Assembly (NCBI GenBank): GCA_903902745.1
Contig: CAIUWA010000009.1
Location: 1 to 64,000 of the forward strand
From: an uncultured Opitutia bacterium
GTDB lineage: Bacteria > Verrucomicrobiota > Verrucomicrobiia > Opitutales > Opitutaceae
Reading direction: 5' to 3'
Length of the DNA: 64,000 nt
Positions 7,542-46,976 of the stretch are shown one piece after another (the first letter of the stretch is position 1; each line of letters starts with the position of its first letter). A program made the position numbers and the translations under genes. Under the pieces are notes generated by a model. It ran no database searches. It was not told the DNA's origin and saw only the letters and a program-made list of their open reading frames with translations.

Positions 7542-9094
7542 GCTCCACCCTCCCCGCGCACGCCGGCCATCATCAGCCCCAGTTTTTGCTCGGTCGCGTC
7601 CGCCGGCGCCACCTCGCCAATGATTTCGCCGCCATTTATGACGAGAATGCGGTCGGCCAGCCCGAGGATTTCCTCCAGTTCCACGGAAACGATCAGCAGC
7701 GCCTTGCCGGCGTCGCGCAGTGCCACGAGTTTTTTGTGGATGAACTCGATCGCGCCGATGTCCACGCCGCGCGTCGGCTGGCCGATGAGCAACACGCTCG
7801 GGTCGGCGCCGATCTCCCGCGCCAGGACGAGCTTCTGCTGATTACCCCCCGAAAAGGCGGAGATCCGCAGCCGCGGGTTGGGCGGGCGCACATCGTAGGC
7901 TGCCATCTTTTCCTCGCAGCCGGCCAGGATGGCAGCGCGGTTGGTGGCGACACCACGGTTATAGGCCGGGCGGTCGTGATAGCCCAGAATCGCATTGGCC
8001 TGGGCCGCGAAACTCGTGACCAACCCCATGTGAAGGCGATCCTCGGGCACATGGGCCAGGCCCAGCCGGCGCCGCGCGCAGGGATCAAGCCCCTCGCGCA
8101 CGAGGTCGCGGTCCTGCAGCCGGATCTCGCCCCGGCTCGGGCTCCGGATGCCCGCGCACGCCTCCAGCAGCTCGGACTGGCCGTTGCCGGCCACCCCCGC
8201 GATGCCGACGATTTCTCCGGCGTGCAGTTCAAAATTAACTCCTTTGACCCGCGGTACGCCCCGGTCGTCCCGCACTTCCAGGTCCTGCACCGTGAGCAAC
8301 GGCGCTCCCGGCCGGGCCGGGCCTTTCGCCACCTGCAGCAACACCGCCCGACCGACCATTCTCTCGGCCAGATCGCGCAGCGAAGTTTCGCGCGTGGGCA
8401 CTGCCGCCACCACCGCGCCCTGCCGCATCACGGTCACCCGGTCGGTGACTGCCATGATCTCGCGTAGCTTGTGCGTGACGAGAATGACCGATTTCCCCTG
8501 CTCCCGGAGCCGCGCGAGCAAACGGAAAAGCTGGTCGGCCTCCTGCGGCGTGAGCACGGCCGTCGGCTCGTCGAGAATCAGGATCTCCGCCCGCCGGTAC
8601 AGCGCCTTCAGGATTTCCACGCGCTGCTGCAGTCCCACGGGCAACTCCGACACCACGGTCTCGAGCGGGACATCCAGTCCGTAGTCGCGCGCCAGCCGTT
8701 CGAGTTCGGTCCGGGCCGCGGCGAGACCTTGCGCGAGCAGCCGGCCGCCCTCGATCCCGAGCACGACGTTTTCCAGCACCGTGAAATTCTCCACGAGCAT
8801 GAAGTGCTGGTGCACCATGCCGATGCCCGCCGCAATCGCGGCCTGCGGCGAGTCGATCGCCACGGCGCGTCCGTTCACGAGGATCTCACCCGCGTCGGCC
8901 TGGTGAAATCCGTAGATGATGTTCATCAGCGTGGACTTGCCCGCGCCATTCTCGCCGATCAGCCCGTGGATGCTGCCCTTCGCCACGGCCAAGGAGATGG
9001 CCCGGTTCGCATGCACCGCACCGAACCGCTTGTCGATCGCGCGCAATTCCAGCGCCGGCGGAGCAGAATGGGTCGAAGGGGCGGTCATGGACAT
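7538..9094 (-). CDS. ABC transporter ATP-binding protein with two nucleotide-binding domains
   Basis: A 518-residue double ABC ATPase that drives nucleoside import (NupO/RbsA-like architecture). Domain 1 has Walker A GENGAGKST, signature LPVGLQQRVEI and Walker B ILDEPTAVL. Domain 2 (from about residue 265) has a degenerate Walker A GVAGNGQSE, signature SGGNQQKLVLAREI and GQPTRGVDI, as is usual for this family, in which the second site is often altered. The frame extends to 9169, but ATG 9094 (MSMTAPSTHS) fits the family start better. A large repeat block, 9095-9422, separates it from the binding-protein gene. Confidence 0.94.
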   Translation of the reverse strand: MSMTAPSTHSAPPALELRAIDKRFGAVHANRAISLAVAKGSIHGLIGENGAGKSTLMNIIYGFHQADAGEILVNGRAVAIDSPQAAIAAGIGMVHQHFMLVENFTVLENVVLGIEGGRLLAQGLAAARTELERLARDYGLDVPLETVVSELPVGLQQRVEILKALYRRAEILILDEPTAVLTPQEADQLFRLLARLREQGKSVILVTHKLREIMAVTDRVTVMRQGAVVAAVPTRETSLRDLAERMVGRAVLLQVAKGPARPGAPLLTVQDLEVRDDRGVPRVKGVNFELHAGEIVGIAGVAGNGQSELLEACAGIRSPSRGEIRLQDRDLVREGLDPCARRRLGLAHVPEDRLHMGLVTSFAAQANAILGYHDRPAYNRGVATNRAAILAGCEEKMAAYDVRPPNPRLRISAFSGGNQQKLVLAREIGADPSVLLIGQPTRGVDIGAIEFIHKKLVALRDAGKALLIVSVELEEILGLADRILVINGGEIIGEVAPADATEQKLGLMMAGVRGEGGA

Positions 9095-9182
9095 CTCGTT
9101 GCAGGCCTCATGCCCACTCTCGCAGCCGTTGGAGCGAAGTCTAGCCCGCAGGACGCCGATCATCGCCAATCACCCAAACCGG

Positions 9183-9339
9183 TTTTGGCCACGGTAAGGC
9201 ACGAGATGACACGAAAAAATCGGGTGACAGGGGACAGAAGTCGGGTGACGGAAAGACAGACGAGTATTTGTCCCCTGTCTCTTGTTGCCCTGTCTCCTGA
9301 TTGGCTTCCCGTCATTTCGTGCCTCTTGGTGGCAAAATT
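9183..9339. repeat. Large palindrome, GGCCAC-GGCAC-ATGACAC family
   Basis: The left arm (9183-9213: TTTTGGCCACGGTAAGGCAC then GAGATGACACG) pairs with the right arm (9310-9339: CGTCATTTCGTGCCTCTTGG then TGGCAAAATT). An inner hairpin is made by CAGGGGACAG (near 9227) and GTCCCCTGTC (near 9270). A second family member is at 42398-42557. Confidence 0.75.
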
Positions 9340-9373
9340 CCCGAGCCTGAAAGCAGACACGCGGCCGAAATGC

Positions 9374-9407
9374 CCCCAATTCCAAACTCCCAATACCCAA
9401 TTACCCG
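9374..9407. repeat. GGTAGTTGG-family block
   Basis: CCCCAATTCCAAACTCCCAA and the following TACCCAATTACCCG match the right arm of the 3236-3321 repeat and lie just after the binding-protein stop codon. Confidence 0.5.
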
Positions 9408-9422
9408 CGGGCCCGGCCCGCA

Positions 9423-10409
9423 TCACTGCGCCTTGTATTCCGAGACCTTGATCTTGCCGCTGATGATGTCGGTCTTCGCCTGGTTCAGCTTCGCTTCCAT
9501 CTCGGGTGTGATGAGCTTGCGGTTGTACTCGTCGAGCGAGTAGTCGACGCCCTCCTCCGCCAGGCCGAGCACGATCTGGCCGGCTTTCCACGTGTCGGCC
9601 TTGGCCATCGTGAACGCCTTGTAGACGGCGACATCGACGCGTTTCACGGCCGAGGTGAGCACACTGCCCGGATGAAGGTAATCCTGGTTGCTGTCGCAGC
9701 CGATGCTGAGCTTGCCCGCGTCCTTCGCGGCCTGCATGACGCCGATCCCGGTCGCACCCGCGGCATGAAAGACCACGTCCGCCCCGCGGCCAAACTGGCT
9801 CTTCGCCAGCTCCGCGCCCTTGGTCGGGTCGCCCCACGCCGCCGGCGTCGTCCCGGTCATGTTTTGAAACACCTCCGCCTTCGGATTCACGAAGTGCGCG
9901 CCCTCGGTGTAGCCCAGCGCGAATTTGCGGATGAGCGGGATGTCCATGCCGCCGACAAAGCCGACCTTGCCGGTCTTCGACGCCAGCGCCGCGGCCATCC
10001 CGCAAAGGAAGGAGGACTCCTGCTCGCGGAAGTTCACCGACTGCACATTCGGCAGGTCGACGACCGCATCGATGATCGTGAACTTCACCTCGGGAAACTG
10101 CTTCGCCACCTTCTCGACCGCGGAGGCCTGGGTGAAGCCGACCGCAACGATGATGGTCGCCCCGCGCTTGGCCAGCTGGGCCATGGCCTGCTCGCGCTGC
10201 GCGGCGTTGGAAATCTCAAATTCGCGGAAGGCGATGCCGGTGTCCTTCTTGAAACGCTCGGCCCCCTCGCTGGCAGACTGGTTGAATGACCGGTCGTTCT
10301 TCCCGCCGAAGTCATAGACGATGGCCGGCTGGAAGTCCTTCGTGGCGGCAGCGACCACTACGGCGGCGGATAGGAAAAAGAGGGCAAAAAGGCGGCGGGG
10401 AGAAGTCAT
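9423..10409 (-). CDS. BMP-family substrate-binding protein of nucleoside ABC transporter
   Basis: A 328-residue periplasmic binding protein of the Bmp/Med family, which binds nucleosides or purine-like ligands. After a signal peptide (MTSPRRLFALFFLSAAVVVA) come the family hallmarks AIVYDFGGKNDRSFNQSASEGAERF (the GxxDxSFN motif), VAVGFTQASAVEKVAKQFPEVKFTIID, and FVGGMDIPLIRKFALGYTEGAHF, with VVFHAAGATGIGVMQAAKDAGKLSIGCDSNQDYL later. No lipobox Cys is present, unlike many Gram-positive members. ATG 10409 was chosen over the upstream start because it begins the signal peptide. It is the first gene of the operon. Confidence 0.95.
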   Translation of the reverse strand: MTSPRRLFALFFLSAAVVVAAATKDFQPAIVYDFGGKNDRSFNQSASEGAERFKKDTGIAFREFEISNAAQREQAMAQLAKRGATIIVAVGFTQASAVEKVAKQFPEVKFTIIDAVVDLPNVQSVNFREQESSFLCGMAAALASKTGKVGFVGGMDIPLIRKFALGYTEGAHFVNPKAEVFQNMTGTTPAAWGDPTKGAELAKSQFGRGADVVFHAAGATGIGVMQAAKDAGKLSIGCDSNQDYLHPGSVLTSAVKRVDVAVYKAFTMAKADTWKAGQIVLGLAEEGVDYSLDEYNRKLITPEMEAKLNQAKTDIISGKIKVSEYKAQ

Positions 10410-10741
10410 CGGGAGTGGTGCTGTGAGCCTGCGTGGAATCGTTGCGGCATTCAATGACGGAACGGCGGTCGCGGCGACCGCCGGGCAATTGGTAGTTGGG
10501 AATTAGGAATTGGTAAATGCTAGCGCGCTGCGCGCCCCGGGATTGGAGTAGGAGCGCACCTTGCCCGTTCGACAAGCTCAGGGCCCCGAGCCAGTCGCGG
10601 GGTGTGCGCCCAAGAGGTTCGGCCTGATTGTGATCACAGCTTTGCGAACGCAAACCGGGCGCACAAAGTACGTCCCTACAAGAGGCAGGACCCACCGAAA
10701 CCAATTCCCAACTGCCAACTACCAATTCCCCGCGCGTCGCG
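10410..10741. other. 332-bp intergenic region of repeats upstream of the bmp operon
   Basis: No gene is seen. It holds an inverted pair of GGTAGTTGG-family blocks (10483-10518 and 10701-10730) enclosing other repeat-like pieces (GTTCGACAAGCTCAGGGCC near 10567). The promoter of the binding-protein gene must lie in the first part. I found no convincing purine riboswitch. Confidence 0.6.
10483..10730. repeat. Outer inverted pair of GGTAGTTGG-family blocks
   Basis: GGGCAATTGGTAGTTGGGAA at 10483 is the reverse complement, with few changes, of CCAACTACCAATTCCC at 10715-10730. The intervening 180 bp look like an insertion into, or between, two arms of one element. Confidence 0.55.
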
Positions 10742-11119
10742 CTACTTCTTATACCACGAGCCGTCCTCGTGCTGCAGCCAGACGCCGGCGGCGCTGTTGG
10801 CGGCGATCTGCTTGGCCCGGGCGCGGCCGACGCCATCGGGCGAGGCACCGGTCTGCTTGCCGATGGCAGCATAAACCGTCTCACGGTCGTGGTTTTCATC
10901 CGCCACCACGCTGGCGGCGTCACCCCCGCCACCCCGGACTTCGACGAGGCCGCGGTTATTTTCCCCAATGGCCCCGCCGGCCTTGAGCGAGTCGAGCTTC
11001 GGCAGGCGCTGCTCGATGCGGGCCTTCACGGCACCAAGATCCTCGGCGGCCCGGGTGATCGCCACCGTGGCGAAGAAAGCGCCGACAACAAAACACAGGC
11101 GGATAAGAATCGTTTTCAT
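10742..11119 (-). CDS. ydbL: YdbL family (DUF1318) periplasmic protein
   Basis: A 125-residue exported protein with signal peptide MKTILIRLCFVVGAFFATVAITRA. The mature part follows the DUF1318 pattern: AVKARIEQRLPKLDSLKAGGAIGENNRGLVEVRG, then NHDRETVYAAIGKQTGASPDGVGRARAKQIAANSAAGVWLQHEDGSWYKK, the conserved C-terminal G-x-W-L/IQ-x-x-D-G-x-W-Y-x-K end. In Escherichia coli YdbL modulates the YdbH-YnbE envelope bridge. Here it is the third gene of a ydbH-ynbE-ydbL operon in the same order. ATG 11119 marks the signal peptide. Confidence 0.9.
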   Translation of the reverse strand: MKTILIRLCFVVGAFFATVAITRAAEDLGAVKARIEQRLPKLDSLKAGGAIGENNRGLVEVRGGGGDAASVVADENHDRETVYAAIGKQTGASPDGVGRARAKQIAANSAAGVWLQHEDGSWYKK

Positions 11120-11144
11120 GGCGGTCAAAGGGGATGGACGGGGA

Positions 11145-11315
11145 TTATTTGAGCGTGGCGGACTTCTTGTCGATGTCGCCGAAAAAGTCATCCAGCGCCT
11201 TGTCCACCTTCACGTTCACGTCGACCACCGCGTGGACTTCGATCGGCTCCATTTTCACATGGATGCAACCGCTGGAAAAGCCGACGAGAACCAGAAGAAG
11301 CAGGCGTTGAAGCAT
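11145..11315 (-). CDS. ynbE: YnbE-like outer-membrane lipoprotein
   Basis: A 56-residue lipoprotein: a signal (MLQRLLLLVLVGFSSGC) with a lipobox-type Cys at residue 17, then CIHVKMEPIEVHAVVDVNVKVDKALDDFF, the beta-strand-rich YnbE pattern. In Escherichia coli, YnbE multimers cap YdbH at the outer membrane to build a lipid-transport bridge. The gene lies 25 bp upstream of ydbL and 167 bp downstream of ydbH. The upstream ATG at 11330 is possible, but MLQRLL fits better. Confidence 0.88.
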   Translation of the reverse strand: MLQRLLLLVLVGFSSGCIHVKMEPIEVHAVVDVNVKVDKALDDFFGDIDKKSATLK

Positions 11316-11384
11316 GGGAGGAAGTTTCAAGGTCAGACCGCAAAATGCAAACTAGGTTTCAATAACCGCAGAAGAGACGGATTG

Positions 11385-11478
11385 ATCGCGGAAGCGCGGA
11401 AACACGGAACGGCGGAGATGTTAGGATCCTCTCTTCCCCGCATTTTTCCGTTCTTCCGCACTTCCGCGATTCCGCGAT
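11385..11478. repeat. 94-bp inverted-repeat element without a gene (ATCGCGGAAG ends)
   Basis: The left end (ATCGCGGAAGCGCGGAA) faces an inverted right end (read inward ATCGCGGAATCGCGGAAG) around a GGATCC centre. The ends match those of the 449-bp element at 17422-17870 that carries a GxxExxY gene. It sits between ydbH and ynbE. Confidence 0.75.
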
Positions 11479-11482
11479 CCCT

Positions 11483-12736
11483 TCATTGTCCGTTTCCGAC
11501 CTTCACCTTCAGGCCTTCGTTGAGGCCGAGCCGCAGCACCTGGTTGAGCGGCCCGGCGACATTCACGGTGAAGGTTACGCGCTCGACCGCGCCGCCGGCC
11601 GCCGGCCGGGCCGCGAGTTCCACGAGCGCGGAACGCGGGGCATCCGGCCCGTCGGGATAAAGCTGCAGGCGCAGGTTTTCCACCGTCAGCAACTGGCGGC
11701 CCAGCTCAATCTCGTGCAACGTATCGTAGGCGGGATTCTCCGGGGAGAACCACCGCGCGACCGGCCCGAGCCAGGCGGGCAGCAGTGCAATCGTCCGGGG
11801 CATGCGCTGCGTGAGAAACCCGGGCGTGGCCGCCAGCCGGACGGTGGCCGGCGCCTCCGCCGATACGGTCAGCGAGCCGGCGCCCGGCTCGAAACCCGTC
11901 GCCGCGCTCCAGCGCAAAGCAATCCGCCCGTCCACGCGGCCATGCGCCTCTGCCAGTGCCTGCGGCACCAGCAGAGCCAGCTCCGCCAGCGCGACCTGCG
12001 AAAATTCGGCTGTCGCCTCCACCGCGGGTTTCGCCGGATTGAAACCGAAGGGCGCGAGCGAGACGTGCCCGCCCAGCACGTCGAGTTCCGCGCGCCGGAT
12101 TTCGAGCTGCCCGTCCGCCCCCCCCGCGATGTCCACCTGGAGATTGCGCGCCACGAGACCCGAGGCCTGCACGGAGCCAACCCGAATTTGCGCCGAGCGC
12201 ACGGCGACATCACCGGCGATCACCGCGAGTTCGCTCGTGACCGTGATCTCCGCCGCCTCCCAGCCCTGCATAACGCTGCGGGCGCTGCCGTTGGCCAACG
12301 TCGAAGTGACTGTGCCGGCAACCTCCGAGCCCTGCCAGGTGCCTTCACCGGCCAGGCGAATGTCGCCCGTCATCACCAAATCACCCGGGAGCGCTACGGA
12401 TCCCGCCTGCGCCGTCACGACTGGCAACCAGGATACCACCTCTGCGGTGCCTTCGACCACGTGCCACGTGCCCGCGGCGGTCGCCGATGGCAAAGTGGAC
12501 TCGACCCGCAGGACCAGCCCCGGCGCGGTGGTGGAAAGTTCCAGCTTGGTGCCCGCACCCTGAGTGGTGGCAGTTACGCGCCACGCAAAGGGAGGCAGCC
12601 CGGGCCATTCCCGCAGAATGAGGTTGCCTGACAAGTCGCCCGTGACCGGCGGAAAATTGAGCCCCGCGGCCAAGCCGGAAAGTGTGCCTCCCCAAGCCAG
12701 CATGGCGGCAAGGAGATGGCGGCGAGGCGAACGCAT
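11483..12736 (-). CDS. ydbH: Short YdbH-like AsmA-type intermembrane bridge protein
   Basis: A 417-residue protein with an N-terminal hydrophobic segment (HLLAAMLAWGGTLSGLAAGL), then mostly beta-strand sequence with the alternating pattern of AsmA/TamB-type grooves. The end (RVTFTVNVAGPLNQVLRLGLNEGLKVKVGNGQ) resembles the conserved C-terminus of the YdbH/DUF748-like family. Identification rests strongly on the following ynbE and ydbL genes, which keep the Escherichia coli order. Known YdbH is about 880 residues, so this one is half length and may span less of the periplasm or act as an oligomer. Function: phospholipid transport to the outer membrane, by homology. Confidence 0.75.
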   Translation of the reverse strand: MRSPRRHLLAAMLAWGGTLSGLAAGLNFPPVTGDLSGNLILREWPGLPPFAWRVTATTQGAGTKLELSTTAPGLVLRVESTLPSATAAGTWHVVEGTAEVVSWLPVVTAQAGSVALPGDLVMTGDIRLAGEGTWQGSEVAGTVTSTLANGSARSVMQGWEAAEITVTSELAVIAGDVAVRSAQIRVGSVQASGLVARNLQVDIAGGADGQLEIRRAELDVLGGHVSLAPFGFNPAKPAVEATAEFSQVALAELALLVPQALAEAHGRVDGRIALRWSAATGFEPGAGSLTVSAEAPATVRLAATPGFLTQRMPRTIALLPAWLGPVARWFSPENPAYDTLHEIELGRQLLTVENLRLQLYPDGPDAPRSALVELAARPAAGGAVERVTFTVNVAGPLNQVLRLGLNEGLKVKVGNGQ

Positions 12737-12801
12737 GCCGTCATAGATTCAACAAACGCGCAAAGGTTGCCAGCAGAAGCTTCCGTCGAAACGGCCGCAG
12801 C

Positions 12802-12896
12802 AGGTGGAACGCGTTGACCTCAACGCGTTGAGTGACTCCGTCAGCGATTAAACGATGGCGGCGTATATCAGCGCGTTGGGGTCAACGCGCTCCGCC
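12802..12896. repeat. Inverted repeat, GGTGGAACGCGTTG family
   Basis: The left arm 12802-12830 and the inverted right arm 12869-12897 agree in about 25 of 29 positions, and each arm is itself a small palindrome (GCGTTGACC/CAACGC). The right arm reaches the glgP stop codon. Further copies are at 19382-19458, 49666-49742 and a half copy at 34029-34060. Confidence 0.8.
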
Positions 12897-15437
12897 TCAC
12901 TTCACCGGCACGGCCGGCAGGCTCCAGATCTGTTCCGCATACTCCCGGATGGTGCGGTCGCTCGAAAACTTGCCCATCCGCGCGGTGTTGAGGATCGCCA
13001 TTTTCGCCCACTTGGCGCGATCGCGGTAAGCCGCGTCGACCCGCGCCTGGCAGTCGCTGTAGGAGCGGAAGTCGGCCAGTACCTTGAAGGGGTCGCCGCC
13101 GGCCAGCAGGCTGTGGTGCAGCGCACCAAAGCCCTGAGGCTCGTTGGGCGTGAAATAGCTCGAGCCGAGCCAGTCGATGATGGCCCGCAGTTCCTCGTCC
13201 GCATTGTAATAATCCCACGGGCGGTAGCCCTTGGCGTCGAGCGCGGCCACCTCGTCGACGTTCAGGCCGAAGATGAAGATGTTCTCGTCCCCCACCTCCT
13301 CCTTGATCTCGACATTGGCGCCGTCGAGCGTGCCGATCGTGAGCGAGCCATTGAGCGCGAGCTTCATGTTGCCCGTACCCGAGGCCTCCTTGCCGGCGGT
13401 GGAAATCTGCTCGGAGAGGTCGGAGGCCGGGATGATCTTCTCGGCCAGCGACACGCGGTAATTGGGCAGGAAGGCGACCTTGAGTTTGCCGCCGATGCGC
13501 GCGTCACCGTTGATGCGCGCGCCGATGGTGTTGATCGCGTAGATGATGTTCTTGGCGAGATCGTAGCCCGGCGCGGCCTTCGCCGCGAAGACGAAGACCC
13601 GCGGCACGATGTCCAGCGCCGGGTTCTGCAGCAGCCGGCGGTACAGCGCGAGGATGTGGAGCAGGTTCAAGTGCTGGCGCTTGTACTCGTGCAGCCGCTT
13701 GATCTGGACGTCGAAGAGCGCGTCCGCCGACACCTGGACCCCGCACTCGGCCTTGATGACGGCCGCGAGGTCGGCCTTGTTGGCGCGCTTGATGGCCATG
13801 AACTCGCGCTGGAACGCGGCATCGCCGGCGAACTTCCCCAGCTTCTGCAACAGGTCGAGGTCGCGCACCCAGGCGGTGCCGCCGAGCTTCTGCGTGATGA
13901 GCGCGGCCAGCCGCGGATTGCTCTTCAGCAGCCAGCGGCGCGGCGTGATGCCATTCGTCTTGTTCTGGAATTTGCCGGGATAGAGGGCGTCAAACTCGGG
14001 GAAGAGGTGCTTTTTCAGCAGGTCGGTATGCAGCGCCGCCACGCCGTTGACGGCATGGGAGCCCGCGACAGCCAGGTTGGCCATGCGCACCATGCGGCCG
14101 CCGTTTTCCTCGATCACGGAGCAGATGCGTTTCTTTTCGTCGTCGCCCGGCCAGTGGGCCTCGACCTCCTTCATCAGGCCCGCGTTGATTTCATAGATGA
14201 TCTGCAGGTGGCGCGGCAGCACGCGCTCGAACAGGGGCACGCCCCACTTCTCCAGCGCCTCGGGCAGCAGCGTGTGGTTGGTGTAGGCAAACGTGCGCGT
14301 TACGATCGCCCATGCCGCCGGCCAGGCCATGTTCTCCTCGTCGACGAGGATGCGCATGAGCTCGACCACGGCGATGGCCGGATGCGTGTCGTTGAGCTGC
14401 ACGGCCACCTTGTCGGCGAAGTTCGTCCACGAGTTCGCCGGCTGGCGGAGGTGGCGGCGGATGATGTCGCGCAGCGAGCAGGCGACGAAGAAATACTGCT
14501 GGACCAGGCGCAGCTCCTTGCCGTTCTCGGTCTTGTCGTTCGGGTAAAGCACCTTCGAAACGGTCTCGCCGACCGCCTTCTCGCGCACGGCCTCGACGTA
14601 GCCGCCGCTGTTGAACGCCGCGAGGTCGAAGTCCTCCGTCGACTTCGAGGCCCAGAGGCGCAGGAGGTTCACCGTCTTCGTGCCGTAGCCGGCCGTTGGG
14701 ATGTCATGCGGCACGCCCAGGATGGACTTCGTGTCGACCCAGCGCGGTCGGTAGTTGCCGCGGTCGTCAAAGACGTTTTCCACGCGGCCAAAGAGGCGGA
14801 CCTCCTGCGTGTATTCGGCGCGCATGATCTCCCACGGGTTGCCGAAGAGAATCCAGTTGTCCGGATGCTCGACCTGCTGGCCGTTGATGAACGCCTGCTT
14901 GAAGAGGCCGTATTCGTAGTAGATTCCGTAGCCGAGCGCCGGGTAGTCGAGCGTGGCCAGCGAATCGAGGAAGCAGGCCGCCAGCCGGCCGAGGCCGCCG
15001 TTGCCCAGGCCCATGTCGCCCTCGGCCTCGCGGATCTTTTCAAAATCCTGCCCAAGCGAGGTGAGCGCGGCCCGCGCGATGTCGTAATGGTCCGTGGCGA
15101 GCAGGTTGTTGCCGAAGAGGCGGCCCATGAGGTATTCGAGCGAAAAATAATAGATGCGGCGCACGTTCTTCGCGTTGTGCACGGCCTGCGTGGCGATCAT
15201 GCGCCCGTGAATCTGTTCGCGAATCGCCATGGCAGTGGCGATCCACCAGTCGCGCGACGTGGCCGAGCCGGTGTCGCGCGCCAGGGTCGACGTCAGCTGG
15301 CTGACGATGGCCTGGCGAAAGGCGACGACCGGATCGTCCTCCACCCGGCGGTGGGGCGCGGGGCCGGCGGCGGGCGCTTTCGGGGCCGGCGATTTCGGAG
15401 CGGAGGGCTTTTTCTTGGCTTTGGCGGTGGTCGGCAT
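12897..15437 (-). CDS. glgP: Glycogen/alpha-glucan phosphorylase
   Basis: An 846-residue GT35 phosphorylase that releases glucose-1-phosphate from glycogen or maltodextrin with pyridoxal phosphate. The catalytic core is clear: [12 protein letters not shown] (residues near 95), [56 protein letters not shown] and the PLP-lysine motif [28 protein letters not shown] near residue 690. The first 30 residues are a Lys/Ala/Pro-rich tail ([17 protein letters not shown]) not needed for catalysis. The length is normal for the family. No other glycogen genes are adjacent. Confidence 0.97.
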
Positions 15438-15553
15438 GCGAAAATTAAGGAGGAGAGAAACAGGAACCGTGCCAGCGCAGGCGGGCCGGTTCAGTTAGTA
15501 TCTGCGTGGGCGGGGCCAGAAAGGCAATGACGCCGGGGTTTGTCGCGCGAAAG

Positions 15554-17416
15554 TCACTTCTGAAAGCGGCGGGCCAGCTCGCCGTGGTTGAGCTCGATGT
15601 AGGTGGGCCGGCCCGCCGGGCTTGTCAGCGGCGCCCGGGTGGCAAAGAGCTGGCCGGCCAGGGCGTGCAGCTCGGCCTCGCCCGGGTTCGCGGGCAGGCG
15701 GACAGCCTTCGCCGCGGCGAGCCGCGCCAGTTCCTCGCGGGCCAGGTCGGGATTTTTCTCCGGCAGGCGCCCCTCGCGCACGGCGCCGAGCACGTCGCGC
15801 AGGAACGGCTCGGCGTCGGCCGGCTCCATCCAGGCCGGCACGGCCTCGATGCGGAAAAAATTGCGGCCGAACTCGCCGATCTCAAATCCGTGGGCGTTGA
15901 AGAACTTCAGCCGGTCGAGCAGCAGCGCCGCGCCGATCGGATCCAGTTCCACCGGCACGGGGAGCAGCAGGCGCTGGCTCGGCACCGCCCCGCGCCGGAA
16001 CTGCTCCTGCAGCCGCTCGTACCACACGCGCTCGTGGGCCGCCCGCTGGTCAAGCAGCACGAGCCCTGCCGCGGTCTCGAAGAGCGCGTAGCTGCCATGC
16101 GCGAGGCCGACATAGCGCCACGCCCGCGGCGTCGCCGTGGGCGGGTGGCCAGTGGCCAGGGGCATGGGGCGAACAGGTCCCGCCGCGGCGGCGGCGGCCG
16201 ACTGGTAGGGCGTGGACGCCGTCCGCGCCGGGTACACCGGCGATGTCATCGGGAAAACCTGAGGCGCGATTGACTGCGGCAATGGATTTCCCGTCTGCCC
16301 GGCGGCGAGTGGCCTGTCCGCCATAGGCTGGGCGAAGGAGGAAGTCGCCGCCCTACCGGTCGGCAACCCCGGCGTCCGGCCTCCGTCCTCCGGCCTCTGT
16401 CTTCCGTCTTCCGGCACCGCCGCCACGCCGAGCTCCCGCAGGCGCTGCAGCACCGACCGGATCACAAAGCCCCGCACCGCTGTCTCGTTGCGGAAGCGCA
16501 CCTCGCGCTTCGCCGGATGCACGTTCACGTCGACCGCCGCCGGATCGAGTTCGAAAAAAACAAAGGCGAGCGGATAACGCCCCTTGGGCAGCGACTCATG
16601 GTAACTCTCGATCAGCGCATAGTTCAGCGTCCGGCTGTCGACGGGGCGGCCATTGACGAAGGTGACCATTTCATGCCGCGTGCCGCGGCCCACGCCGGGC
16701 CGGCCGATAAGTCCGCTCAGGCGCATCCCCGCCTCCGCCGCCTCCAGCGGCACCAGCGACTCCGCGATCTGCCGGCCGAAAATCTCCGTCACGCGCTCCG
16801 CCAGCGTGGCGCATTCGGGCGAGCGGAAACTCACGCGCCCGTCCTCCACGAGGGTGAAAGACGTCTGCGGACAGGCCAGTGCGTAGAGCCGCACGCACTG
16901 GGAGATGTGCGCCGCCTCGGTCTGGTCGGTCTTGAGGAACTTGCGCCGCGCCGGCACTGAGTTGAAGAGATGCGTCACCTCGATGCGCGTGCCGGTCGGC
17001 TGGCCGCTGTCGCGGACGTGCACGAACTTGCCGCCGTTGACGAGGATCTCCGTGCCCGCGTCGCTGCCGGTCTCGCGCGTCAGCAGCAGGAAGCGAGACA
17101 CGCTCGCGATGGAGGGCAGCGCCTCGCCGCGGAAGCCGAACGTGCCGAGCCGGTCAAGGTCGGCGGCCTCCAGGATCTTGCTCGTGGCATGCCGTTCGAG
17201 GGACAGCAGGGCGTCGTCGCGCGACATGCCATGGCCGTTGTCCTCGATCCGCATCAGCGAGCGTCCCCCGTGACGGAACTCCACCTCGATCCGCGTCGCC
17301 CCGGCGTCGAGGGCGTTTTCCACCAGCTCCTTCACCACCGCCGCCGGGCGCTCGATGACCTCGCCCGCGGCGATCTGGTTGGCGACCCGGTCGGAAAGAA
17401 TGCGGATTTTGGCCAT
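15554..17416 (-). CDS. mutL: DNA mismatch repair protein MutL
   Basis: A 620-residue GHKL-ATPase that links mismatch recognition to strand incision. The N-terminal domain (1-330) shows KELVENALDAGATRIEV, DNGHGM, FGFRGEALPSIASV and VNGRPVDSRTL. A variable Pro/Ala-rich linker follows (about 335-440). The C-terminal domain carries LLDQRAAHERVWYERL, the place of the DQHA-x2-E-x4-E endonuclease motif, with Arg replacing His. Whether this variant still cuts DNA is unknown. No mutS or mutH is in the window. The start at 17416 abuts the GxxExxY repeat element by only a few bases. Confidence 0.96.
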   Translation of the reverse strand: MAKIRILSDRVANQIAAGEVIERPAAVVKELVENALDAGATRIEVEFRHGGRSLMRIEDNGHGMSRDDALLSLERHATSKILEAADLDRLGTFGFRGEALPSIASVSRFLLLTRETGSDAGTEILVNGGKFVHVRDSGQPTGTRIEVTHLFNSVPARRKFLKTDQTEAAHISQCVRLYALACPQTSFTLVEDGRVSFRSPECATLAERVTEIFGRQIAESLVPLEAAEAGMRLSGLIGRPGVGRGTRHEMVTFVNGRPVDSRTLNYALIESYHESLPKGRYPLAFVFFELDPAAVDVNVHPAKREVRFRNETAVRGFVIRSVLQRLRELGVAAVPEDGRQRPEDGGRTPGLPTGRAATSSFAQPMADRPLAAGQTGNPLPQSIAPQVFPMTSPVYPARTASTPYQSAAAAAAGPVRPMPLATGHPPTATPRAWRYVGLAHGSYALFETAAGLVLLDQRAAHERVWYERLQEQFRRGAVPSQRLLLPVPVELDPIGAALLLDRLKFFNAHGFEIGEFGRNFFRIEAVPAWMEPADAEPFLRDVLGAVREGRLPEKNPDLAREELARLAAAKAVRLPANPGEAELHALAGQLFATRAPLTSPAGRPTYIELNHGELARRFQK

Positions 17417-17421
17417 GAAAA

Positions 17422-17870
17422 ATCGCGAAAACGCGGAAGGGCGGAAACGCGGAATTAGAGTGAGAGCACGACCCGTCGGATTTCGAGCGTTGGTTTCGCA
17501 AAATTCAAAACCAAGGCGAGTGGCAAATTCGTGGCCTTGAGATAGGAGCGGGCGGTAGCCAGATGAATATCCTCGATGTCTTTGCAGGCTTTAAGTTCGA
17601 GCACGACGCGGTCTTGGATCAAATAGTCGAGCCTATGCTCCCCAATGGGCTTCCCCTCGTAAAAAAGCAGCACGATCTTCTGCCGCTCAAATGACAGCCC
17701 GGCCTTCGCCAATTCGACCGCGAAGGCCTCCTCATATACCTTTTCCAGAAATCCTGGCCCAAGTACTCGGTGCACCCGAATGCCGCAGCCGATGATCCGC
17801 TCCGAAAGCTCCGCCTCAATTAATTCCATCGGGGTTTCTTCGCGCTTCCGCCCTTCCGCGCTTCCGCGAT
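17422..17870. mobile_element. 449-bp inverted-repeat element carrying a GxxExxY gene
   Basis: Two 30-bp terminal inverted repeats, 17422-17451 and 17841-17870, agree at 27 of 30 positions (read inward they start ATCGCGAAAACGCGGAAGGG and ATCGCGGAAGCGCGGAAGGG). They enclose one complete gene. AAAA stands immediately outside both ends and may be a target duplication, although it is low complexity. The element lies exactly between mutL and argH without damaging either. A gene-less relative is at 11385-11478. Calling it mobile is inference. Confidence 0.6.
17455..17829 (-). CDS. GxxExxY family protein, PD-(D/E)XK nuclease-like
   Basis: A 124-residue protein. LGPGFLEKVYEEAFAVEL (residues 22-40) is the defining G-x-x-E-x-x-Y segment. 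GEHRLDYLIQDRVVLELKA (residues 64-82) reads as the D...ExK catalytic core of the PD-(D/E)XK nuclease superfamily, with Asp in RLDYL and Glu-x-Lys in ELK. The rest (ATARSYLKATNLPLALVLNF) is the typical family end. Biochemical function is unknown. The gene fills the inside of the 30-bp inverted repeat element, with its stop only 4 bp from one arm, so it appears to travel with that element. Confidence 0.9.
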   Translation of the reverse strand: MELIEAELSERIIGCGIRVHRVLGPGFLEKVYEEAFAVELAKAGLSFERQKIVLLFYEGKPIGEHRLDYLIQDRVVLELKACKDIEDIHLATARSYLKATNLPLALVLNFAKPTLEIRRVVLSL

Positions 17871-17875
17871 AAAAA

Positions 17876-19276
17876 TCACTTCAGCAATTTCTTCCAGCGA
17901 TTGAACTGCTTCGCCACCTGCGCCGGGCCGGGCATGCCGGTGCCGGTGCGCTTCGCCAGCGCGCGGTCGAGATCGAAGACCTTCGTCCAGTCAGGCCCAA
18001 AGGCGGCATGGACTTTCCGCACCTCCTCCAGGGGAAGCTGGTTGAGTGCCATGGCATTGCCTTCCGCCAGCCGCACCACCGCGCCCACGGCGTGATGCGC
18101 CTCGCGAAAGGGCACGCCCCGGGTCACGAGGTAATCGGCGAGATCGGTCGCGAGCAGCGCCGGATCGGCCACGGCGGCGGCGCAACGGTCGCGGTTCACC
18201 GTCAGTCCGGCCACGGTGCCGGCCAGCACGTCGGCGCACAGGGCGCTCTGGTCAAAGCTGTCGAACACCGGCGGCTTGTCCTCCTGCAGGTCCCGGTTGT
18301 AGGTCAGCGGCAGGCCCTTCACCAGGGTCAGTAGCGTGTGCAGGTTGCCCTGCAGTCGCGCCGACTTGCCCCGCAGCAGTTCGCAGGAGTCGGAATTCTT
18401 CTTCTGCGGCATCAGCGAGGAGCCGGTGCAGAAGGCCTGCGGCAGTTCCACGAACTTGAATTCCGCGCTCGTCCACAGGATGAGGTCCTCGGCGATCCGC
18501 GACAGGTGCGTACCGAAGAGGGCGCAGGCCGTGGCAAACTCGATGAACATGTCGCGGTCCGCCACGGCATCCATGGAGTTCTGTGTGACCTGCGGCCGGC
18601 CCTTCGCGTCCACGAAGCCGAGCGCCTTCGCCGTGAACTCGCGGTCAATGGGCAAGGTCGTGCCCGCAAGGGCGCCGGAGCCCAGGGGACACCAGTTGGC
18701 GTGCGCGACGACGTCGGCCAGCCGGGCCCGGTCGCGCTCGAGCATTTCGAGCCAGGCAAAAAGATGATGGGCGAACTGCACCGGCTGCGCCCGCTGGAGA
18801 TGCGTGTAGCCAGGAATGAGCACGTCCCGGTTGGCCCCCGCGATGGCCAGCAGGGCGCGCTGGGCGCCGAGGATTTTTCCGCCGAGCACCGCGCTGGCGT
18901 GCTTCAGGAACAGCCGCATGTCCGTCGCGACCTGGTCGTTCCGGCTGCGCGCGGTATGGAGCTTCGCCGCGGCGGGCACCCGCTTGGTCAGCGCCGCCTC
19001 GAGGTTCATGTGCACGTCCTCGAGCCTCGTGTCCCAGGTGAATTTGCCCGCCGCAATCTCGGCGAGGATGGCATCCAGCCCGGCGTGGATGGCGTTACGT
19101 TCCTTCGCCGTGATGAGCCCGACGTGCGCGAGCATGGCCGAGTGCGCCTTGCTGCCGGCGACGTCAAATGGCGCGAGGCGGCGGTCCAGCGAAACGGATT
19201 CGCTGAACTGCAGCATCAAGTCGGCGGGCCCCGCGGTGAAGCGGCCGCCCCAGGTGGCTTGGGTTTTCTTGGGCAT
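17876..19276 (-). CDS. argH: Argininosuccinate lyase
   Basis: A 466-residue enzyme of the fumarase/aspartase superfamily that splits argininosuccinate into arginine and fumarate. The start ([21 protein letters not shown]) is typical. The superfamily signature [12 protein letters not shown], the flexible loop with the catalytic Ser, lies near residue 285. [13 protein letters not shown] and [16 protein letters not shown] carry the substrate-binding residues. The frame extends to 19525 through repeat sequence, but ATG 19276 gives the usual length. No other arg genes are nearby. Confidence 0.97.
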
Positions 19277-19381
19277 GACGAGGGAGGAGCTGACGCCGCC
19301 GCCCCTCGACGCGCAACGCGAAAAGGGGTCGTGGGACTGTCCTCTGCAGTGGGAACGATACAGTTGCGAGTCACAATCCGA

Positions 19382-19458
19382 GGGGGGAACGCGTTGTCCC
19401 CAACGCGTTGCGGCGAAGCCGCTCCGATCAGCGCGTTGGGGACAACACGCTCCACCTT
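19382..19458. repeat. Inverted repeat, GAACGCGTTGTCCCCAAC family
   Basis: Arms at 19382-19410 and 19429-19458 pair; each contains a TTGTCCCCAACGCG/CGCGTTGGGGACAA palindrome. Same family as 12802-12896 and 49666-49742. Confidence 0.8.
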
Positions 19459-19490
19459 GACGCTCCCAATCCCAACCGCAGAGTCGCGGC

Positions 19491-19946
19491 ATGATTACCC
19501 CCCGGATGCTGCTGCTTGCCGCCACGCTGGCGCTGGCCGTATCCGCCCGCGGCGAGGAGGCGCCGTTGAGCCGTTACGCGACCGTCACCGTTGAGACGGC
19601 GAAGACCTCCATCTACGTCGGGAGTGTGACCCTGACGATGCCGGTGTTCACCCGGCAGGCCGGCACCTATGCCACGACCTATGCGGCCAGGGTCTTCCCC
19701 TACTTTTTCTACAATGAGAAAGGGCAGCTCTGGATTGATGTCTCCGACGAAAATCTCCGCGGGCTCGAGCGCGGCGAGACCGTCAACTTCACCGGCCATG
19801 CCCGCAGTGCCGATGGTGAGGAGCGCCGCGTCGAGGGCCGGGCCGTGCCGGCCGATGCCCTTAGTGGGAAGCTCAAGGTGCGCGTCTTCGTATCCAAGCG
19901 CATCGAGCTGATTTTCAACACCACGTACCGGTTTCCACAAAAGTAG
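19491..19946 (+). CDS. Secreted hypothetical protein
   Basis: A 151-residue protein with a signal peptide ([21 protein letters not shown]) and a mature beta-rich domain ([72 protein letters not shown]). The pattern suggests a compact periplasmic beta-sandwich. No family is recognised. It is divergent from argH and followed by a repeat element. Confidence 0.75.
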
Positions 19947-19971
19947 CGGCAGCAAGCCGGACGATGAGGTA

Positions 19972-20084
19972 GTTTCGCGCAGTGGCGCAGTGGCGCAGAG
20001 AAGACCCGGGACTTGGAAATTTCAGAAAGGGGAAAAGGCCTCTCCCCTGCTTTCGCTCAGCGCCACTGCGCCTCTGCGCGAGAC
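19972..20084. repeat. Inverted repeat, GTTTCGCGCAGTGGCGCAG family
   Basis: The left arm 19972-20003 and right arm 20056-20084 pair in about 25 of 29 positions. A related element (GTTTCGCACAGAGTCGCAG and inverse) is at 45806-45957. Confidence 0.7.
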
Positions 20085-20106
20085 CGGTTTGGAATGACTC
20101 CGCCTG

Positions 20107-20517
20107 CTACTCCGCCCAGTGGAACACCACCGGTTTTTCCACGGACGGGTCGAGACTCAGGTGCACCGGACAGTTGTGGGCGGCGTGCTCGAGCAGCATG
20201 GCGACCGCTTCGGTCCGGGGCAGCGGCAACCAGAGATGGGTCGCGAGCCGGGCGATGCGGCGCGGGCCGAATGCGGACATTTCCTTGGTCACCTCGTATT
20301 TCAGTCCGCGCAGCTCGATCCCCTGCTTGCGGGCTGCGAGGGCCATCGTGGTCGCGATGCAGGTGGCGAGCGCCGTCGCCACCAGGTCCGTCGGAGAAAA
20401 CGCCTCGCCTCGCCCCTGGTTGTCCTTGGGCGCATCCGTGGTCAGCGCACTGCCCGACGGGCCGTGGCTGGCGGTGCAGTGCAGGTCGCCCTGGTATTCA
20501 CCCGTGATTTTGACCAT
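20107..20517 (-). CDS. OsmC family protein
   Basis: A 136-residue OsmC/Ohr-type protein, a family that reduces organic hydroperoxides with two cysteines. Cys appears in the buried helix LVATALATCIATTMALAARKQG (near residue 53) and in HAAHNCPVHLSLDPSV (near residue 115), the expected pair. The EAFSPTDLVATAL segment is the usual helix entrance. It is more like the YhfA/OsmC-like branch than Ohr. It may serve envelope or oxidative-stress defence together with the neighbouring DUF1328 and BON genes on the same strand. Confidence 0.9.
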   Translation of the reverse strand: MVKITGEYQGDLHCTASHGPSGSALTTDAPKDNQGRGEAFSPTDLVATALATCIATTMALAARKQGIELRGLKYEVTKEMSAFGPRRIARLATHLWLPLPRTEAVAMLLEHAAHNCPVHLSLDPSVEKPVVFHWAE

Positions 20518-20583
20518 GCGCCCAACTTTCGCCGAATTGCCGCGGTGGCAATCGTCAAAAGCGGGCGCATGGCCACGAACCGG

Positions 20584-20742
20584 TCAAACTTTCCGGCCGC
20601 TGAAAAGCGAGACGATGAAAAGAACCAGGAAGATGACGAAACACACCTTGGCGATCATCGCGGCCGTACCCGCGATCACGCCAAAGCCGAGGATGCCCGC
20701 GATCAGGGCGATGATGAGGAAGGTGATGGCGTAGCTTAGCAT
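20584..20742 (-). CDS. DUF1328 small membrane protein
   Basis: A 52-residue protein starting [20 protein letters not shown] and ending [10 protein letters not shown], with two transmembrane helices. This is the characteristic DUF1328 (YtjA-like) sequence, a family common in environmental bacteria and often located beside stress or BON genes. Function is unknown. The start at 20742 has a GA-rich stretch (complement of GGAGG-like TCCTCC) just upstream, a likely ribosome-binding site. It lies between the BON and OsmC genes on the same strand. Confidence 0.88.
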
Positions 20743-20771
20743 GGGAGGAAGGGGTTCGAGGTGGGCAATGC

Positions 20772-21515
20772 TCAGTTCCTCACGGTCATGTCATTGCGGA
20801 CCGACTTCACCCCGCGCACGCCTTCGGCGAGCTTGGTGACGAGGGACTTTTCCGCGTCGGACGAAGCGTCGCCGGTGACCGAGACGACTCCATCCCGCGT
20901 GTCGACCTTCGTCTTGATGGCGCTGGTCGAGCGATGGGTCAGGAGGGCGTATTTCACCCCGGAAGTGATGGAAGCATCGTCGATGGCTTCGCCCATGGAG
21001 CGTTCGGACGCCGCCGGTTCCTTTACGACGATCTCATTTCGGACCGCCTTCACGTGGTCGATGTCCTTCACGTAGGCCTCGGTGAGGTCCTTCTGGGCGC
21101 GATTGTCCGCGGTCCCGGTCAGGGTGACGATGCCATCGTTCACCGCGACCTTGGTCGCCGTGGCGCTGACATTGGCCTTCATGAGCAGGCGGCTGCGGAT
21201 CTTGAGGGCGATCCAGGCGTCGGAGTGCTCGGGGGTCGTGGACTGGACCACGATCTGGTTGTTAACGCTGAGGACGCCGGGAAGGTTCTTCACCGTTTCC
21301 TCGGCCAGATCGCGGTCGTCCTTGTCCTGGACGGTGCCGGTGAGCGTGACGACGCCGTCGTTCGCTTTGACCTTCACATGATCCTCGAGGACCGTGCGAT
21401 AATTGTAGGATGCCTTGGCCGCGGACTCGATTTTATCGTCCGTGGCGGAGGAGGCAAACAGCGCGACCGGCAAGGTGGCGAGAAGGAGGAAGGCAATGCG
21501 AGTGGAAGTTTTCAT
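20772..21515 (-). CDS. Periplasmic protein with three BON domains (OsmY-like)
   Basis: A 247-residue exported protein with signal peptide [20 protein letters not shown]. Three BON modules follow in order, roughly residues 28-95, 100-165 and 175-245, each with the pattern [14 protein letters not shown] or [14 protein letters not shown] or [14 protein letters not shown] followed by [13 protein letters not shown]-type ends. BON domains bind membranes and are seen in osmotic-shock proteins such as OsmY. The upstream extension to 21599 is not needed. Placement with DUF1328 and OsmC suggests an envelope-stress cluster. Confidence 0.92.
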
Positions 21516-40814: not shown

Positions 40815-40904
40815 CAAAAGCTGAAACGCTGAAATTCTGAAAAGCTGAAATCCGGAGACAGAAAATTTCAGCTTTTCAGATTTTCAAAATTTCAGCGTTT
40901 CCAT
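40815..40904. repeat. Inverted repeat, GCTGAAACGCTGAAA/TTTCAGCG family
   Basis: GCTGAAACGCTGAAATTCTG and AAAAGCTGAAATCC on the left face TTTCAGCTTTTCAGATTTTC and AAAATTTCAGCG on the right, making a long AT-rich hairpin. Same family as 2318-2352. Confidence 0.7.
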
Positions 40905-46887: not shown

Positions 46888-46976
46888 TATCGTTGGTTAT
46901 GGCTTATCGCTCATCCGGCCATTGACGGAAGGCCCTCCGCAATGACCCAATAAGCGATAACCGATAGCCAATGAGC
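46888..46976. repeat. Inverted repeat TATCGNTTGG-type reaching into the aroA start
   Basis: TATCGTTGGTTATGGCTTAT-CGCTCAT (46888-46915) pairs with ATAAGCGATAACCGATAGCC-AATGAG (46951-46976). The right arm contains the ATG of aroA, so the element covers the translation start region. Confidence 0.7.

Follow-up and report, generated by a model that had tools for sequence, protein, structure and literature searches.

What is a small nuclease-like gene doing alone between two inverted repeats, in the gap that separates mutL from argH? The question arises from the window analyzed here (the whole stretch of 64,000 nucleotides from an uncultured Opitutia bacterium), in which two arms of 30 nt each, 90% complementary and 389 nt apart, enclose a single open reading frame. 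The left arm (17422-17451, plus strand, ATCGCGAAAACGCGGAAGGGCGGAAACGCG) is built of GCGGAA-type units at 8-bp spacing and the right arm (17841-17870, minus strand, CGCGCTTCCGCCCTTCCGCGCTTCCGCGAT) of inverted copies of this type of unit, and the gene (17455-17829, minus strand, 124 amino acids) forms the loop of the resulting palindrome. The element fills the gap from the argH stop to the mutL start: in the list of open reading frames mutL (15554-17416) lies downstream and argH (17876-19525, the true start being inside this frame) upstream, both on the minus strand. An earlier note on this DNA had described one gene within 30-bp inverted repeats at this position, and our analysis agrees.

A GxxExxY gene in the loop of a palindrome

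The encoded protein is a member of the GxxExxY family, with 125.6 bits for TIGR04256 (cut-off 35) and 122.3 bits for the Pfam profile PDDEXK_3 (PF13366, cut-off 22). Residues D68, E78, and K80 are invariant over 18 sequences and make up a D...ExK core like that of PD-(D/E)XK nucleases, as the earlier note had recognized, and a confident structure model (pLDDT 94.6) is in agreement. This model matches the fold of the Cas4 protein SSO0001 best (Z 10.1), with other restriction-endonuclease-like and RecB-type nucleases next in rank; a Holliday-junction resolvase was rejected as the nearest fold, Hjc scoring below Cas4 with a Z of about 6. Based on the model, the fold is RecB/Cas4-like PD-(D/E)XK and the protein a predicted nuclease. 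A QxxxY motif is present in most aligned members, the window protein having Thr for Gln. No PADLOC anti-phage defence profile matched the protein at an E-value of 10. GxxExxY being the sole frame enclosed, there is no DDE or other known transposase between the arms, nor is the gene, intergenic between argH and mutL, surrounded by an intron or intein.

The earlier note had allowed that the ends might be mere low-complexity sequence. They are not such a coincidence, since at least 12 further matches to the arms are found elsewhere in the genome; moreover, a paired-arm pattern scan of the window returned exactly two elements (17422-17870 and 11385-11478), and none in 20 Markov shuffles. All four GxxExxY genes of the source genome lie within inverted repeats, with units of the types GCGGAA, CACAGAG (twice), and GCAAAG. 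We then scored the inverted repeat between the two flanks of each gene in wider sets, with a threshold of at least 28 and displaced windows of the same loci as controls. This threshold was reached by 60 of 72 genes in relatives, by 54 of 63 from the phylum, and by 59 of 74 across other phyla, archaea included. Overall, approximately 83% of 209 GxxExxY genes are flanked by palindromes versus approximately 1% of control windows, a rate possibly biased upward because most loci were taken from among the family matches with the highest scores; the other ∼17% have no clear palindrome by the score used. Such ends thus flank GxxExxY genes generally, which is what the earlier note had wanted to see counted. 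GxxExxY genes also occur in AT-rich viral contigs (L344, L345, and L342, at approximately 1501-1833) between long inverted repeats whose units are different (AAATTTTACTTAAAATTT); the score is 112 in both L344 and L345.

The design of the arms can be described from 181 elements. The unit is a heptamer that fits CRCNRAN in 160 of them, its preferred spacing is 9 bp, then 8 and 10 bp, and the arms consist of exactly 3+3 units in 103. Gene-less elements of genome G071 follow the same 3+3 design around a loop of approximately 12 bp. Read inward, the ends begin with TTTTAACC, after which comes the first unit, and an A/T tract at the ends usually belongs to the end itself. The AAAA outside both ends at the mutL-argH locus, recorded in the earlier note, is no evidence of target-site duplication, as direct repeats in the larger set barely exceed the shuffles (direct 4-mers outside 22% of 141 elements versus 16 ± 3%). 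The elements lack the target-site duplication of an insertion sequence with MITE derivatives, and the gene-bearing element of the window lacks a known transposase.

Arm units and the protein they enclose

The type of unit follows the protein. Leaving out pairs with similar flanks, mismatches between units decrease from 2.85 for proteins of less than 40% identity to 0.49 for those of at least 70%. Unit types change far fewer times on the protein tree than shuffled labels do, position 7 of the unit, for example, requiring 8 changes versus 31.8 with shuffled labels.

This relationship can be narrowed down to a single residue. We scanned all protein columns against the bases at four unit positions (2, 4, 5, and 7), and the top outlier was residue 9 with base 5 (r 0.56, against a background over all columns with a mean of 0.01 and a standard deviation of 0.08). 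Position 5 was the only clear outlier among the four, position 2 being marginal, and no protein column exceeded the permutation limit for positions 4 and 7. Residue 9, located at the start of helix 1, is usually Thr, and the next two columns in rank, residues 10 and 13, are near it in the same helix. Thr at this residue is paired with G at base 5 in 103 cases and with A in one; units with A at base 5 almost always go with Ser, Ala, Gly, or Cys. The window protein has Ser (S9) with G at base 5, a minority pair among G units. The association is also seen where at least 15 nt separate the arm from the point at which the protein domain begins (Thr versus other residues 87/20 for G and 1/40 for A), and in the phylum and cross-phylum sets, outside the relatives, Thr occurs with A in none of 25 cases. 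On the best tree, path-disjoint pairs are concordant in 13 cases and discordant in one (p 0.0018 before correcting for the column scan), while the same test restricted to strongly supported branches retains 5 pairs and has no power. A unit type that follows the protein, together with one residue covarying with one base, implies sequence-specific recognition; judged from these sequence comparisons, recognition of the arms by the GxxExxY protein would be the simplest reading of the covariation, and it is well supported.

Gene-less copies, fixed sites, and turnover of palindromes

If the protein reads its own units, palindromes lacking a gene might be expected to accompany the gene of their type. 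Such a relation is clearest for the CACTRAT type. Each of the 8 genomes in which a CACTRAT-type gene was seen contains between 9 and 234 CACTRAT unit pairs, versus a median of 0 in the 87 other genomes (p 1e-7), and a control with the reversed pattern stays near 0. In 85 of these 87 genomes the number of pairs is 0 to 6, and the two exceptions are G077, which carries a CGCTAAT-type gene, and G013, which is 67% complete. The link between gene and repeats is looser for the GCGGAA type: G000 and G004 have both, and G002, G003, and G017 have many GCGGAA-type repeats, with no gene of this type among those typed there.

The window itself holds a gene-less palindrome of the same GCGGAA unit type as the gene-bearing one (11385-11478). 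This 94-bp element folds into an extended hairpin (-28.1 kcal/mol, z -4.85), and the sister genome G002 carries it at the identical site, indicating that it is old and vertically inherited. What the earlier note had taken for a gene-less sibling is therefore a real hairpin with the same units and no gene, but not a recent copy.

The genes, for their part, sit at fixed sites. An arrangement with GxxExxY between gatA and gatB is common to 16 loci over the family, order, and phylum (L055, L052, L054, L171, L269, and 11 others), one of them from a genome placed only to the same phylum; their proteins come from many genera, are 53-77% identical to that of L055, and have the same arm class throughout. 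The argH site is occupied by a GxxExxY gene in G000, G004, G072, G036, G073, and G075 (in the last, mutL is not adjacent to the gene) and lacks one in the congeners G002, G005, and G008. At the argH-mutL site a dN/dS of approximately 0.13 indicates purifying selection. GxxExxY genes thus appear at fixed sites and are vertically inherited, which speaks against simple mobility.

The palindromes are less stable than the genes, as they turn over and nest. Empty mutL-argH sites had been proposed as a check, and congeners without the gene do exist, but a different palindrome is found there and not a clean empty site. The same is true of 19 intergenic gaps compared between G000 and G002, in which no clean empty allele was seen because nearly all gaps carry some palindrome in both genomes, usually of a different type. 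In the window, a gene-less palindrome with GCGCAGTGGCGCAG-type units (19972-20084) is missing from the G002 gap, where a different short palindrome lies instead, and further palindromes between genes, built of still other short repeats (10474-10740, 40816-40901, and 46910-46975, of the AATTGGTA, GAAAAGCT, and TATCGCTTA types), likewise have different palindromes in the orthologous gaps of G002. When the sequences flanking a G071 element were sought in G003, synteny was broken. Orthologous sites show a concerted switch of the units in both arms, as in CACGGAA versus CACGAAA with Thr versus Ser. In G036, whose gene at the argH site is of the CACGGAA type, a complete CACGGAA-type palindrome occupies the loop of another of the CGCGGAA type, as if a younger type had inserted into an older. 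Nesting is seen again, though less cleanly, in G071 (L329, 7686-7809), where the loop of a CACTAAT-type palindrome contains a CACGGAT-type arm. Inspection by eye suggests a possible nested pair in the window as well, where a CACGAAA-like palindrome (arms 9190-9216 and 9311-9333) apparently encloses a second one with GGTGACAGG-type units.

Could all of this reflect autoregulation, the heptamers being operators of a DNA-binding GxxExxY protein and the gene-less palindromes extra sites used by the host, with nothing mobile involved? The covariation, the flanking sites, vertical inheritance, and purifying selection would fit, as would the rarity of GxxExxY genes on plasmids (8 of 72,556 records). 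We nevertheless regard this as unlikely, as it leaves unexplained the symmetry of the units on both sides of the gene, the unit-pair matches that number over 200 in a single genome, the nesting of whole palindromes, and the conservation of the D-ExK nuclease core.

A probable nuclease-palindrome partnership and its relatives

Alternatively, the GxxExxY gene might be a passenger, with another enzyme such as a RAYT making or moving the palindromes in whose loops it only settles. A precedent exists in the four-helix-bundle genes of the 23S-IVS type (TIGR02436), which settle in another class of comparable palindromes: all four of the source genome are enclosed by stuttering inverted repeats, each of its own type (L013, L014, L015, and L016, at approximately 1250-2150 in each, with units GACGGAG, AATCTCA, AAGTAACA, and CATAGGTC), and in a wider set 23 of 31 score at least 28 versus 2% of controls, with a different unit design. 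RAYT-like genes, moreover, are present in 70 of 95 relatives. Yet a passenger would not be expected to covary with the arms residue by base, nor would unit type be expected to follow protein similarity at unrelated sites, and the number of RAYT genes does not track that of CACTRAT repeats (Spearman 0.20, p 0.12), for which reason we rejected RAYT as a hidden mover and consider the passenger role quite improbable. Since TIGR02436 genes also lie in palindromes, the placement of small genes in such loops may extend beyond the GxxExxY family. Hardly any credence can be given to ordinary transcription terminators or mRNA-stabilizing hairpins that happen to enclose a small gene, because although the palindromes fill intergenic gaps and form stable hairpins, the inward TTTTAACC on both sides makes the RNA after the hairpin A-rich and not U-rich, an Rfam scan of 9000-21000 gave no family above the gathering score, terminators at the GxxExxY locus do not exceed shuffle expectation, and neither the covariation of unit and protein nor the turnover of types would be accounted for.

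We consider it probable that GxxExxY is a small predicted nuclease recognizing the heptamers of its own arms, with the gene-less copies as non-autonomous partners, in a manner resembling REP/RAYT. A palindrome system with a nuclease in place of RAYT had been suggested in the earlier note; the generality of the flanks, the tracking of protein by unit type, the covariation of residue and base, and the co-occurrence of gene-less copies with the cognate gene all point in this direction, but simple mobility of the element, which it allowed for, is at odds with the vertical inheritance of genes that keep their sites and are under purifying selection, and with the conservation of the 94-bp sibling. 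In such a partnership, the protein would bind the units by its N-terminal helix and might cut or trim the hairpin or cruciform of the palindrome, the RecB/Cas4 fold being suggestive of single-stranded or flap DNA as substrate. Repair templated on another copy could then homogenize the arms, and occasionally the same repair may seed new gene-less copies in intergenic gaps. We infer cleavage and mobilization by GxxExxY, the latter as homogenizing and spread driven by repair, from the fold, the copy numbers, the concerted change of units, and the nesting.

In the open-access literature we found neither a role nor a repeat partner described for the GxxExxY family, and no prior description of a partnership between a nuclease and palindromes. 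GxxExxY genes are annotated in many bacteria without a role, and their tie to repeats gives a testable function. It would also bear on the CACAGAG-, CACGGAG-, and CACGAAG-like palindromes scattered between genes in many phyla, for which we found no earlier explanation. The concept of REP/RAYT-type genome parasites or domesticated partners would gain a second class of enzyme through the partnership, which also offers natural pairs of protein and DNA whose specificity has changed many times.

Several known systems share features with this one. Among proteins, the closest folds in both structure searches are Cas4 and RecB-like nucleases (SSO0001, lambda exonuclease, AddB, MGME1), with which GxxExxY shares the D...ExK core and, in most members, QxxxY; it is much smaller, however, and covaries at the residue level with a flanking DNA repeat. 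The four-helix-bundle or 23S rRNA intervening-sequence proteins are likewise encoded by small orphan genes inside stuttering palindromes here, but they are unrelated to GxxExxY and their units are mostly 7-bp tandem repeats of other sequence without a spacer. Homing endonuclease genes resemble the GxxExxY gene as nuclease genes kept in a short element at conserved sites, a likeness that would extend to homogenization by repair, whereas GxxExxY is intergenic, resides in no intron or intein, and has gene-less copies genome-wide.

The nearest parallel is REP/RAYT, in which short extragenic palindromes are present in many copies, the cognate enzyme is found at few fixed sites and is vertically inherited, repeat types are enzyme-specific, and the enzyme gene is flanked by its own repeats. 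As with REP and REPIN palindromes and their RAYT (TnpA-REP) tyrosine transposases (e.g., PMC3116915, PMC8049555, PMC8266576), dispersed palindromes match the type of the GxxExxY enzyme, and the gene is fixed in place (gatA-gatB, argH-mutL) and passed on vertically. In contrast to REP/RAYT, the arms are 3+3 heptamers with spacers of 1-3 nt, a single palindrome encloses the gene in its loop, and the system is spread over many phyla and archaea. The enzyme is a PD-(D/E)XK protein, for which Pfam names only PDDEXK_3, and not an HUH/Y1 transposase, so that the system is not a member of REP/RAYT; grouped by logic alone, it could be regarded as a variant. Both the enzyme and the design of the repeats set it apart from all systems that we can name. 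We give about even chances to a categorically new class of element, occurring in bacteria and archaea as well as some viral contigs, in which a compact RecB/Cas4-type nuclease would read its own heptamers by a simple residue-to-base code, keep the arm units identical by repair-driven conversion, and seed gene-less copies, and which would be a source of stuttering intergenic palindromes in many genomes.
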